From Candidatus Cloacimonadota bacterium (GTDB lineage: Bacteria > Cloacimonadota > Cloacimonadia > JGIOTU-2): DNA of 40,120 nucleotides. Of the stretch, positions 10 to 30,769 are shown piece after piece. The notes beneath the pieces are model-generated. The model did no database searches. It had not been told where the DNA came from and was given only the letters and a program-made list of their open reading frames with translations. The stretch is taken from positions 1 through 40,120 of the forward strand of contig JAUWMT010000024.1 of NCBI GenBank assembly GCA_030613025.1, written 5' to 3'. Positions within the stretch are counted from its first letter, which is position 1. Each line of letters starts with the position of its first letter. Made by a program: the position numbers and the translations under genes.

Positions 10-158
10 TAGTGATAAGTCAATGGTTAAATGACGTAAATTGAATTTTAACAAAGTTTGAAACCTCATCCTAACCTTCTCCTATCTGAGGAGAAGGCAA
101 TATAAGGAATGTCAAAATTCAATTACCATTTCCAATCGAAGATTGACATGACACTAGG
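10..158 (+). repeat. MITE-like inverted-repeat element, uninterrupted copy
   Basis: This stretch is closely similar to the reverse complement of 22295-22484. Its ends are imperfect inverted repeats: TAGTGATAAGTCAAT at the left pairs with ATTGACATGACACTA at the right, 12 of 15 positions matching. Inside are a second inverted pair (TTGAATTTTAACA with TGTCAAAATTCAA) and a short hairpin around CCTTCTCC/GGAGAAGG. It has no coding capacity. Two dispersed copies with inverted ends fit a small non-autonomous element, although no transposase with matching ends is in the window. This is the empty version for comparison with the interrupted copy at 22295-22484. Confidence 0.7.
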
Positions 159-2504: not shown

Positions 2505-2651
2505 ATTAGTGTGCATCCGTAAAGTCCATTTTTCAACCTCACAGACAAAAAGTTCCCCTTCTCTTTTTAGGAGAAGGGGTTAGGGGATGAGGTAAAACAG
2601 AATGAAAAATATAATTCTACTAGATTTTAAAATTTACGGATGGACACTAAT
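2505..2651. repeat. Small inverted-repeat element beside the insertion sequence
   Basis: ATTAGTGTGCATCCGTAAA (2505-2523) pairs with TTTACGGATGGACACTAAT (2633-2651) with one mismatch, giving a 147-bp element with 19-bp inverted ends. The interior has a hairpin, CCCCTTCTC with GAGAAGGGG, similar to the hairpin inside the 10-158 element. There is no coding capacity. The IS256 target duplication ends on its first base, so the insertion sequence landed at its edge. Confidence 0.6.
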
Positions 2652-5674: not shown

Positions 5675-5729
5675 CCTATGGAATAAAATCAAAGATTTTA
5701 ATCCGACTGCTGTCGGATTATTCCACAGG
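5675..5729. repeat. Palindromic repeat, family A (CCC-GTG-AAT type), nested
   Basis: The outer arms CCTATGGAATAA (5675-5686) and TTATTCCACAGG (5718-5729) pair with one mismatch. Inside is a second stem, AATCCGAC (5700-5707) with GTCGGATT (5712-5719). The outer arms resemble those at 22388, 25447 and 27829. Confidence 0.5.
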
Positions 5730-5773
5730 GTGAACACCGATAATCACCGATTAAATTCATAATTCAAAGTTAA

Positions 5774-22199: not shown

Positions 22200-22294
22200 A
22201 GTATCCTTCAATCTATTTATTTTTAGAACACTTTGTTATAAAATAAGTTATTATTCAAAACACAGAGTATCGAGAAAAATTATTAAATTTTCAC

Positions 22295-22484
22295 CCTAGT
22301 GTCAAGTCAAGCTTCGATTGGAAATTGTAATTGAATTTTAACATTCCTTATATTTCCTTCTCCTCAACTAGGGAGAAGGTTAGTTTACCCCGTGAAATCA
22401 GCTTGCTGAATAGTTCACTGGGGGATGAGGTCTCAAACTTTGTTAAAATTCAATTTACGTCATTTCACAATTGACTTATCACTA
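22295..22484 (-). repeat. MITE-like element, second copy, carrying a nested palindrome
   Basis: The reverse complement matches 10-158 over nearly its full length, including both ends and the GGAGAAGG hairpin. It differs mainly by about 40 extra bases at 22383-22422. It fills most of the gap between the kinase-fusion gene and the stop of the next gene at 22499. Confidence 0.75.
22383..22422. repeat. Palindromic repeat, family A, inserted into a MITE-like element
   Basis: CCCCGTGAAATCAGC and GTTCACTGGGG-type arms face each other around TTGCTGAATA. The same element at 10-158 has GGTTA directly joined to GGATGAGG (in this orientation), so these 40 bases are an insertion. The arms match other family A copies (CCC-x-GTG-x-AAT with ATT-x-CAC-x-GGG). 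Confidence 0.65.
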
Positions 22485-22498
22485 CCACTTATCATATT

Positions 22499-23938
22499 TT
22501 AATGTCTTACTGTATGTTTACTCGTTTCAGCACGATGAACATCCCATTCAAATCCGCAATTGACGCATTTTCTATGATCAAGATAATTCTCGGTCGTTGT
22601 GATTTCTTCGTCATGATGTCGCGCGTAATGCTTCGTTTCTGTGTTACCGGAATGTGTCGTTCCTGTATAGACATCACGAGTTTTCCATGCTCTTGATTCC
22701 TCTGTGCCGGTATGAGTGCTGCCTTTATCTGCCGCGCTCCACATTGTATGACAGCTTGGGCAGCGGTTGTAGTTTACGTTTTTATTATTCCAGCGTATGA
22801 AAATAAACCATGGAACAAGGGTAAATATCGCTATGACAAGAAACTCTTCCAGAATTACGTTGAGTGTCAAAACAAGGAAGAAGAAATACATAAAAGCAGT
22901 GAGCAGGAGGAAGTTAATAAATTTAACCAATCCATTTCCCATCGGTTTGATCGAAATGATGAGTCGTCTGAAGGGCCAGGATAAGAATTGAGGTATTGAA
23001 AAGAAAAGGAATATTCCTATCAAAGAAACAATGAAGCCGATAATTTTAGTTAAGAGATTTTTCTTTTTGAATTTGCTCCACCAGCCTTCTTTGGTATCAG
23101 CTTTTCGCAAATAAGTTTTCTGAGAGTTGGAGAGCCAATTGAGGTTGATACTTCTTATCAAACCAGCAAGGGGAAGTTTTTCTGCAATTGATTTTTTGGC
23201 AGAACCGAGAAGTGTTATCTCATTCGCAACGTCACCATCATATGATATTTTCAATCCATTATGACGCATTTTATTTTGCACTCCGATCACATACTGGAAG
23301 TAGAGTTCAGAAGAAGTTTGATTATTGTTAGTAAAAATGAATGCGCTTGCCGGACCGATAAAATCGATTGCTTCTTCCCTTGTTTTGCCGATAAGCTTAT
23401 TCTGGAGTTTTTCAAGGGTATAGATTCGGGTAAATTTCTGATTTACTTCTGGTAGGATTCTAAAATATGGAGAACGCATATAGTGCTTGATAACTGTGCC
23501 AACCCTCCCATCCTCTAAGCGTACTTTATAGATGCCACCATTATCAAGAACTTCAAGCCAGTATGCTCGGGTGCCGGGAGGAAGTATCTCATAATCGCCA
23601 GAGCCCCATTTCAGTCCGTAATAAAATTTAATTGAGTCGACATTCTCTACCCAATAGATTTCCTCGATATCGTCAAATTTGATAAATCCGTATTCTTCTG
23701 AAGGTAATGTGACTTTAAAACACGAGGCATAAGATGCTGAAGGAGTTACTTTTGTACCCTTCCATACTTGCTTCAGCTCGATCGCTGGTTCTCCTTTTGA
23801 TTGATAGCTTTCCCAAAGAAGCCAGGTATTGTTACGGATCGTCCAAACTTCCTGAACTTCCGCAACTTCTTCCTTAGCACATAATGATGAAAATACGAGA
23901 ATGAAAAATAGTAAAACTGCAAGTCCTTTTTTAAACAT
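22499..23938 (-). CDS. Membrane protein with signal peptide, SH3-like N-region and split zinc ribbon
   Basis: I do not recognise a named family. The 479-residue protein has a signal peptide (residues 4-21) and an extracytoplasmic region of about 270 residues with beta-rich, SH3b-like segments (WLEVLDNGGIYKVRLEDGRVGTV). Two strongly hydrophobic segments follow at about 295-330, then two at about 340-385. A cytoplasmic-looking tail begins with CPSCHTMW. About 65 His/Thr/Glu-rich residues separate that from CVNCGFEWD near the C-terminus. The two C-x-x-C pairs could form one zinc ribbon split by the polar insert. AAGGAGA precedes the start. The downstream stop touches the MITE-like element. It may sense the envelope and signal inward, but that is speculation. 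Confidence 0.6.
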   Translation of the reverse strand: MFKKGLAVLLFFILVFSSLCAKEEVAEVQEVWTIRNNTWLLWESYQSKGEPAIELKQVWKGTKVTPSASYASCFKVTLPSEEYGFIKFDDIEEIYWVENVDSIKFYYGLKWGSGDYEILPPGTRAYWLEVLDNGGIYKVRLEDGRVGTVIKHYMRSPYFRILPEVNQKFTRIYTLEKLQNKLIGKTREEAIDFIGPASAFIFTNNNQTSSELYFQYVIGVQNKMRHNGLKISYDGDVANEITLLGSAKKSIAEKLPLAGLIRSINLNWLSNSQKTYLRKADTKEGWWSKFKKKNLLTKIIGFIVSLIGIFLFFSIPQFLSWPFRRLIISIKPMGNGLVKFINFLLLTAFMYFFFLVLTLNVILEEFLVIAIFTLVPWFIFIRWNNKNVNYNRCPSCHTMWSAADKGSTHTGTEESRAWKTRDVYTGTTHSGNTETKHYARHHDEEITTTENYLDHRKCVNCGFEWDVHRAETSKHTVRH

Positions 23939-25392: not shown

Positions 25393-25446
25393 GCGAAGTA
25401 TGAAGCGAGAATGTGCCAATCCTCGAATCACACTTTTAACCCGTTT

Positions 25447-25550
25447 ACCCTGTGTAATCTCTTATATCTTTTATTACACATGGGTGAAATCTGTTTTTTA
25501 TTTATCCCGTTAAATCACATCTTTATTTATTAAACTGGGATTTCACCGGG
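25447..25550. repeat. Tandem family A palindromes
   Basis: ACCCTGTGTAAT (25447-25458) faces ATTACACATGGGT (25473-25485) with one offset base. Next to it, GGGTGAAATC (25482-25491) faces GATTTCACCGGG (25539-25550), with an inner CCCGTTAA-type pair from 25506. So two or three units of the CCC-x-GTG-x-AAT family are packed and nested here. Confidence 0.5.
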
Positions 25551-25591: not shown

Positions 25592-25621
25592 CTTTGCGAA
25601 AGTTGCCTTCCTTTCGCAAAG
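25592..25621. repeat. Palindromic repeat, family B (CTTTGCGAAAG)
   Basis: CTTTGCGAAAG (25592-25602) pairs perfectly with CTTTCGCAAAG (25611-25621) around an 8-base loop. A copy differing at one loop base lies at 30342-30371. The similarity continues for about 60 bases downstream in both copies. Confidence 0.7.
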
Positions 25622-25676
25622 TTAAAAGGATCATAAAAATATCTGTTGCTGATTAAGGGTAATCAACCCTAATTAA

Positions 25677-25715: not shown

Positions 25716-25904
25716 ATATTTTTAATCAAATAATTCCTCGAGGTTCTGCCTCGGGGTTTCCAATTTCTCCATTTCCATTTTGGAGAGGGCTGGGGTGAGG
25801 TAAAATAATGAAAATTCGGTTTTCAATCATTGGATTGAAATAAAATTGGCGAAATACTCCTTTGTCTGCCACGGGGATAGTCAATTTTAAGAATTTTCTT
25901 TATT

Positions 25905-25935
25905 GAGTGTGTCATGGAATGGTCCATGACACCTC
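25905..25935. repeat. Family C palindrome, left copy flanking the FG-GAP gene
   Basis: GTGTCATGGA (25909-25918) pairs perfectly with TCCATGACAC (25923-25932). The 31-base unit is identical to 27606-27636, in the same orientation, on the other side of the FG-GAP gene. Confidence 0.75.
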
Positions 25936-25987
25936 GAAATAACTGCAGACAATCAGGATAGTATTTTTGATGAAATAACAAATAAAA

Positions 25988-27563: not shown

Positions 27564-27605
27564 TTCGGTTATATGAGCTGTGAGGGATCAATCCCTGACG
27601 GTCGT

Positions 27606-27636
27606 GAGTGTGTCATGGAATGGTCCATGACACCTC
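27606..27636. repeat. Family C palindrome, right copy
   Basis: GTGTCATGGA (27610-27619) pairs with TCCATGACAC (27624-27633). The 31 bases are identical to 25905-25935. It begins 43 bases after the stop of the FG-GAP gene. Confidence 0.75.
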
Positions 27637-27676
27637 AAAACCAAAAAAAAACATAGGAGATTTAGTATTTACTAAC

Positions 27677-27798: not shown

Positions 27799-27828
27799 TA
27801 AAAAAAAAGCATTAACCGTTTTATTTAT

Positions 27829-27864
27829 CCCGTGAAATGGATTTATCTTTTTTATTTCACTGGG
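27829..27864. repeat. Palindromic repeat, family A
   Basis: CCCGTGAAAT (27829-27838) faces ATTTCACTGGG (27854-27864), with a TC-rich loop. The pair has the same arm design as 22383-22422 and 25447-25550. It lies 95 bases before the ECF promoter. Confidence 0.6.
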
Positions 27865-30341: not shown

Positions 30342-30371
30342 CTTTGCGAAAGTTGCATTCCTTTCGCAAAG
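30342..30371. repeat. Palindromic repeat, family B
   Basis: CTTTGCGAAAG (30342-30352) and CTTTCGCAAAG (30361-30371) form a perfect 11-bp stem. The unit is the same as 25592-25621 except for one loop base. Confidence 0.7.
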
Positions 30372-30769
30372 TTAAAACACCATAAGAAAATTTTCGAATG
30401 ATTAAGAATAGTCAGCCCAACCGCCGAATTGTCATTCCCACGGGAGTGGGAGTCAAGAAATTTCACATGTTTTTAAAACATTCTGTATTTTATCATTTTC
30501 CCCATGAATAAAATACTGGATTCCTCCCGATGCATCGGGAAGAATGACAATTTAGAACAATTCATTAGGAACCCTAAGGTACGAGGATTCCTTGCAAGGG
30601 TATCGACTCCTCGTCATTGTATTCCTTAGGAGTCGAATTAGTAAACTGGATTCACAATCAAATTGGGCAATGATATTGTTTTTATTTGGAGTTATTAATT
30701 CTAATCTGCGAGGATCAGCCAAATCTGCGTGTATCTGTGTTCTATTTTGTTGAATTGTTGATCTAACAT
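30372..30769. other. Repeat-rich intergenic region, no gene
   Basis: It holds a CTGGATTCC repeat with the perfect palindrome TCCCGATGCATCGGGA (30525-30540). It also holds a nested hairpin whose arms are CCTAAGG with CCTTAGG and ACGAGGA with TCCTCGT (30573-30630). The last 100 bases include ATCTGCG-type words often found in dispersed repeats. No reading frame with a ribosome-binding site is apparent. Confidence 0.55.

Follow-up and report, generated by a model that had tools for sequence, protein, structure and literature searches.

How short bacterial palindromes originate and move is a long-standing question, and direct pairs of empty and filled sites are uncommon for elements of 40 bases. 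The 40,120-nt stretch of Candidatus Cloacimonadota DNA analysed here (the window) contains two copies of a repeat, element A, only one of which carries a 40-base palindrome. The locus thus raises the question of whether this palindrome entered element A as a unit, was lost from it, or was exchanged between its copies.

A filled and an empty copy of element A

The initial annotation described the repeat at 10-158 and the reverse complement of 22295-22484 as aligning nearly throughout, except for a 40-base palindrome. Global alignment of the two copies (Table 1) confirms this description with exact coordinates. The 40 nt at 22383-22422 form the single large gap, outside of which the copies are 91-95% identical (91% and 95% for the two arms). 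Specifically, GTTTACCCCGTGAAATCAGCTTGCTGAATAGTTCACTGGG (40 nt) separates GGTTA from GGATGAGG in the filled copy, while the empty copy reads GGTTAGGATGAGG at the same point. The split after GGTTA that had been read by eye is therefore placed by the alignment at GGTTA^GGATGAGG, a precise junction with an ambiguity of 1 nt (a G). The inserted hairpin is composed of a 5′ head GTTTA, an outer stem CCCnGTGAA/TTCACnGGG and an inner hairpin CAGC-TTGC-GCTG, and no Rfam covariance model matches window 22250-22520 up to E=1. The termini of element A are inverted, with TA as the sole possible target duplication.

Bases 1-141 of the window recur as the terminal 141 bases of contig C20 and, almost unchanged, at the start of contig C92; the match to C20 is consistent with a k=141 assembly overlap. 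The empty form of element A is nonetheless real, because five other empty copies (L003, L005, L006, L011 and L019) are internal to contigs.

Table 1. Repeat elements and hairpins in the window
Feature	Position	Strand	Remarks
Outer MITE-like element A, filled copy	22295..22484	(-)	ends TAGTG...CACTA
Outer element A, empty copy	10..158	(+)	at contig edge, probable assembly overlap
40-nt hairpin, probably mobile	22383..22422	(+)	inside filled element A copy
Second hairpin, CCTTCTCC...GGAGAAGG	22356..22379	(+)	adjoins 40-nt insertion site
CCTTCTCC...GGAGAAGG hairpin of empty element A copy	75..97	(+)	
MITE-like element B, empty	2506..2651	(+)	ends TTAGTGTGCATCCGTAAA / TTTACGGATGGACACTAA
Family member, 41 nt	25443..25483	(+)	inserted at TTTTAACCC^GTGAAATC, inside older palindrome
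Family member, ATTTATCCCGTGAAAT...ATTTCACTGGG	27823..27864	(+)	between AACCGTTTT and AACGGTT; weaker match
GTTCACCCTGTGGAAT, shell arm of larger family member	5720..5735	(-)	

Filled and empty copies coexist across the genus

Element A has 33 matches in its own genome (G000; 2.83 Mb, 98 contigs). Classification of about 30 copies, by eye and by script, gave 21 filled, 8 empty and 1 partial, counts in which copies at contig ends possibly appear twice. The filled copies agree in the palindrome and in its position, and mostly belong to one palindrome lineage (TTCAGCAAGCTGA); the empty copies almost always have the junction GGTTA^GGATGAGG, i.e. CCTCATC|CTAACC. Within the same genus, empty copies are also present in G001, G002, G006 and G007, and filled copies in G001, G005, G006 and G007. 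Among the empty copies of the five species, L071 and L019 (CCTCATC|CAAACC in the latter) deviate by one base immediately beside the junction. The initial annotation held that the first copy would be a simple deletion if every other copy carried the palindrome; instead, the empty state is found in 8 of about 30 copies in the genome itself and in further copies from four sister genomes. Hairpin deletions are visible in L096 and L083, and both hairpins are missing from L074, a copy that comes from another family.

In a tree of 51 element A copies, which was built to polarise the event and is short and unresolved, the state changes 16 times, compared with 17.3 for shuffled labels. The listing of junctions over genomic copies, by which the annotation proposed to judge mobilisation, thus returns empty copies with nearly always the same junction, intermixed on the tree with filled ones. 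An unstructured state fits recurrent insertion or loss, and also gene conversion between copies. Many of the filled copies probably arose when an element that already held the hairpin was amplified or converted, and not by separate insertions.

The hairpin changes state at an orthologous locus

A filled and an empty paralogue, taken alone, could also result from deletion. One pair, the filled copy L008 (G000:C51) and the empty copy L100 (G001:C173), is orthologous on both sides, with flank matches of 1.68 kb at 92% to C173 and, on the far side, of 1.09 kb at 92.5% to C19, the other contig end of the site. Because these flanks are common to both genomes, element A predates the split of the two species, and the hairpin came or went afterwards. 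Together with the shared junction, this pair demonstrates that the hairpin is a discrete unit that changed state after its host had landed. A further difference between L008 and L100 lies 14 nt away, in the loop of the adjacent hairpin.

This second hairpin, CCTTCTCC...GGAGAAGG, shows precise presence or absence (26 nt) of its own between the orthologues L019 and L104. At another, apparently orthologous locus (L091, G001:C130; L016, G000:C69), one species has the CCTTCTCC hairpin and the other has CCCCGATATATCGGGG. A search for orthologous empty sites in unique DNA, using the joined flanks of 16 further units in G000 versus G001, gave mostly repeats and no clean pair.

Related hairpins insert into and break other palindromes

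The palindrome also occurs in other hosts. It is found without the outer element A in G015 and G016 (another genus), and inside GTTCCCAA-type palindromes in G001 and G006. These hosts are unrelated repeats, in this genus as well as in another (L075, L076, L081 and L086), and in G005 and G006 a second hairpin is nested within the palindrome of element A.

A second MITE-like element, element B, provides a comparable pair. The window copy is empty at GGGGTTA^GGGGATGAGG (2582^2583), while the copy on G001:C90 holds another family member at this site, not the one found in element A, together with a further 27-nt hairpin elsewhere. The two backbones are identical at 78/78 positions beside the insert and nearly identical in the remainder.

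Four types of host have, when empty, an unbroken palindrome spanning the junction, and the insert disrupts it: TTTTAACCC^GTGAAATC (L113, empty, versus L225 and window 25443), CCCGATATAT|CGTATCGGG (L258 versus L250 and L188), CCCAAACA^GGGGTTTGGG (within G001:C75) and CCCACA^GTGAAATAG (L233 versus L228). The intact form of the palindrome split at 25443-25483 lies in contig C73; its junction was read from the sister copy L225, which aligns cleanly, as direct comparison with L113 aligns family member to family member. Because deletion would not recreate the symmetry of a palindrome, these four cases are insertions. A site GATAT^ATCG inside a larger hairpin holds two different hairpins in two species (L250 and L188) and is empty in a third (L258).

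GGTTA^GGATGAGG is itself no palindrome, and for the element A pair we infer the direction, insertion, from the behaviour of the family, since the empty junction recurs in five species, a single G is shared, and element B is empty at a motif resembling this one. The earlier proposal that these palindromes move, or are copied, as discrete units is upheld by the orthologous pair L008/L100, by the unrelated hosts and by the broken palindromes.

Insertion leaves little or no target duplication

In clean comparisons of filled and empty sites within the genus, the insert shares 1-2 nt with its target (G, GG, GT, AA, AT). In wider comparisons, 0-2 nt are common to insert and target, with few longer cases, and one deltaproteobacterial pair shares 6 nt. 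With regard to a 2-bp target duplication, most cases share 2 nt (GG, GT, AA, AT), and the element A site and some others share 1 or none. The family thus has the little or no target duplication that is typical of IS200/IS605-type elements. No tetra- or pentanucleotide is fixed 5′ of the element (flanks include GTTA, AACA, ATCT, ACCC, CAGT and ATAT), and insertion is often adjacent to G-rich or GT sites and within or beside other palindromes, including those of the family itself.

A shell shared across phyla encloses free interiors

The family is defined by a shell, GTTYACCCnGTGnAAT...ATTTCACnGGG, around a free interior that often consists of one or two further hairpins. Units are mostly 36-60 nt long and are short imperfect palindromes of high copy number. 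The window contains four matches to GTTYACCCnGTGnAAT (up to 2 mismatches), compared with 0.35 expected, and four were reached in 0/100 shuffles. With 1 mismatch, GTTYACCCnGTGRAAT is found 53 times in G000 and 56 times in G001, counts in which units matching on both strands appear twice, and 0 times in reversed controls.

The complete shell, searched for without mismatch, is present in at least 116 stretches, in records from Bacteroidota, Cloacimonadota, deltaproteobacterial (Desulfobacterota-type), WOR-3/Stahlbacteria, Patescibacteria and Planctomycetes MAGs, i.e. at least six phylum-level groups; we estimate that chance would produce fewer than one such match in 257 Gb. Viral carriage of the hairpins was considered and dropped, as the 2.9 million viral contigs of IMG/VR contain 0 exact shell matches. 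In published text, 27 papers contain one of the shell strings, and none of the 20 listed was relevant, as judged by title.

The interiors are diverse (64/84 distinct), and they fold better than shuffled sequences (mean MFE -2.4 versus -0.8 kcal/mol; p<=0.05 in 41%). Several consist of two adjacent hairpins, giving a three-way junction. In Patescibacteria (L294, L323, L330 and others), the shell of several units encloses a pair of perfect inner hairpins, side by side and closed by tri- or tetraloops, and the arms of these units change freely yet stay paired.

RAYT genes are plentiful, and none of those examined is bracketed by the shell

G000 encodes 11 Y1_Tnp genes, several of which are bracketed by palindromes of their own. 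The RAYT genes bracketed by CTTTGCGAAAG (L062), GTTCCCAAGC (L064), CTTTACCAATT (L110) and GTGTCATGG (L111) form, with these palindromes, REP-RAYT pairs as described in PMC2817692. Two palindrome pairs in the window belong to such systems: 25592-25627 and 30342-30377 (CTTTGCGAAAG...) match the palindromes bracketing the RAYT gene on C86 (L062), and 25904-25939 and 27605-27640 (TGTCATGG...) match those bracketing the RAYT gene on C95 (L111). Both are ordinary REP-RAYT systems in Cloacimonadota.

Of the Y1 loci examined, about 47 from the genus and 30 from other phyla, the GTTYACCC shell brackets none. A RAYT partner was accordingly rejected after searches of the genome itself, the genus and 30 foreign genomes, in which several RAYTs have REPs of their own. 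The expectation that a RAYT-like gene would be found elsewhere thus holds in that RAYTs are plentiful, and fails in that none of those examined adjoins these hairpins or is bracketed by them. Within the genus, exactly the five genomes rich in hairpins have one particular RAYT cluster, which G002-G004 lack, and G003 has neither hairpins nor Y1; this co-occurrence is suggestive but confounded by kinship, and the cluster has different flanking repeats of its own. No Y1 match was obtained in two hairpin-rich MAGs (15 and 22 motif matches), MAGs being potentially incomplete.

Contig C48, which carries several hairpins, was rejected as an autonomous copy, as by eye its genes resemble pairs of small nucleotidyltransferase/HEPN genes, with no transposase seen among them. 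Two loci (L066, G000:C8; L148, G004:C4) encode a Y1 transposase-like domain in frame, with no stop, inside a long ORF with DNA methylase motifs (NPPYG, by eye); the Y1 domain differs between the two genomes. The window also contains an IS at 1061-2496, with inverted repeats at 1061-1087/2470-2496, in which ORF 1664-2398 matches Mutator-family (PF00872) transposases; the adjoining ORF 1168-1698 is possibly the remaining part of a disrupted gene.

Comparison with known small repeats

REPs associated with RAYTs have a conserved 5′ head followed immediately by a short imperfect palindrome, and occur in tens of copies, scattered and clustered (PMC2817692); GTAG- and CGTC-tagged repeats are treated in PMC3733652. 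The present hairpins resemble REPs in having a head, then a short imperfect palindrome, and a high copy number. However, their head is GTTYA, not GT(A/G)G, and units begin with GTTTA or GTTCA, a feature that the family searches themselves require and that the window unit has independently. Unlike the CGTC-tagged repeats, the units have no CGTC at their end. Furthermore, a RAYT bracketed by two inverted hairpins was not found, an arrangement that other REPs of the same genome do have, and the hairpins, unlike REPs, are nested in MITEs and in each other and combine a cross-phylum shell with free interiors.

REPINs are miniature and non-autonomous, and excision of whole units is evidence of their mobility (PMC3116915). 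The present hairpins are also miniature, non-autonomous and present or absent as whole units, but the unit is a single hairpin and not a pair of REPs. Cyanobacterial small dispersed repeats, the subject of work by Elhai and co-workers in 2008, are reportedly very small units that are mobile by comparison of empty and filled sites, and to our knowledge they have no known transposase. By description, their sequence, hosts and hairpin architecture set them apart. Fungal mitochondrial GC clusters and double-hairpin elements are nested GC-rich hairpins that insert into AT-rich DNA and into each other, and we know of no enzyme for these either. The likeness is again by description, and the hosts of the present hairpins are not organellar. 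The hairpins work like REPs or cyanobacterial small dispersed repeats but, in the analyses made here, lack two features that define REPs, namely the head and the bracketed RAYT.

Proposed mechanism and alternative explanations

We consider it probable that the 40-base palindrome is a non-autonomous mobile hairpin of a large family whose members insert precisely, and that element A copies of both states have spread. A member would consist of the 5′ head GTTYA and the stem CCCnGTGAAAT/ATTTCACnGGG around a free interior. It would insert precisely, often beside G-rich or GT sites and within or beside palindromes, leaving 0-2, mostly 1-2, shared bases. One such hairpin would have inserted into GGTTA^GGATGAGG of the MITE-like element A, after which element A copies of both states would have spread. 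A trans-acting enzyme would recognise the head and outer stem and move the unit, in the simplest case as single-stranded DNA in its folded form. The data support mobility of the hairpins; they do not support a RAYT mechanism. We propose only tentatively that the hairpins are cross-phylum minimal transposons, made of head and outer stem with interchangeable interiors and Russian-doll nesting, and moved in trans by an undescribed non-RAYT enzyme.

Gene conversion between dispersed copies could instead switch the state, such that one old insertion later spread only through recombination of element A. The unstructured tree, the single palindrome lineage of most filled copies and the additional loop difference between L008 and L100 agree with this account. 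It leaves unexplained the same hairpin in unrelated hosts, the different hairpins at the similar element B target and the nested second hairpins, and as a full explanation we regard it as possible but somewhat doubtful. Conversion may have operated alongside insertion, shuffling states afterwards.

It is unlikely that the hairpins are REPs of the ordinary kind, moved by a RAYT (Y1, IS200/IS605-like) of this genome. Their head-plus-palindrome design, the lack of a long target duplication, the 11 Y1 genes, several with palindromes of their own, and the RAYT cluster confined to the hairpin-rich genomes, with G003 lacking both hairpins and Y1, would suit such a mechanism. The shell brackets no Y1 locus in the genus or in other phyla, however; the co-occurring cluster has different repeats, two hairpin-rich MAGs have no Y1 match, and the hairpins lack a GTAG/GTGG head and a common 5′ tetranucleotide. 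Equally, we do not favour a route with no transposase, in which hairpin-primed template switching or microhomology copying at replication puts palindromes into palindromes. The 0-2 nt common to insert and target, the frequent palindromes or G-runs at targets and the failure of our searches to find a partner gene speak for it, but the conserved unit ends and the cross-phylum shell imply recognition of the whole unit.

It is quite improbable that the hairpin is ancestral to element A and that the empty copies are deletions by replication slippage across it, although 21 of about 30 copies in the genome are filled and hairpins are deletion-prone, as in L096 and L083. Slippage needs flanking repeats, and here one base is shared, yet in five species nearly every empty copy has one and the same junction. 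Moreover, the similar target motif in element B (2506-2651) is empty, other members break pre-existing palindromes that deletion could not recreate, and L074, as one copy from another family, leans the same way. An assembly artefact at a repeat, as might be suspected because several copies, the first of the window among them, are at contig ends in agreement with k=141 overlaps, is very improbable, as long contigs contain several copies of either state in their interior and the same forms recur in independent genomes.

With precise insertion of a mobile hairpin as the preferred reading, the genus offers many nested pairs, one orthologous pair, and close species with and without hairpins, so that a comparative search for the enzyme is feasible and its cut sites are predictable with nearly single-base precision. 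That the shell is so widespread while the interiors are free tells what the machinery must recognise.
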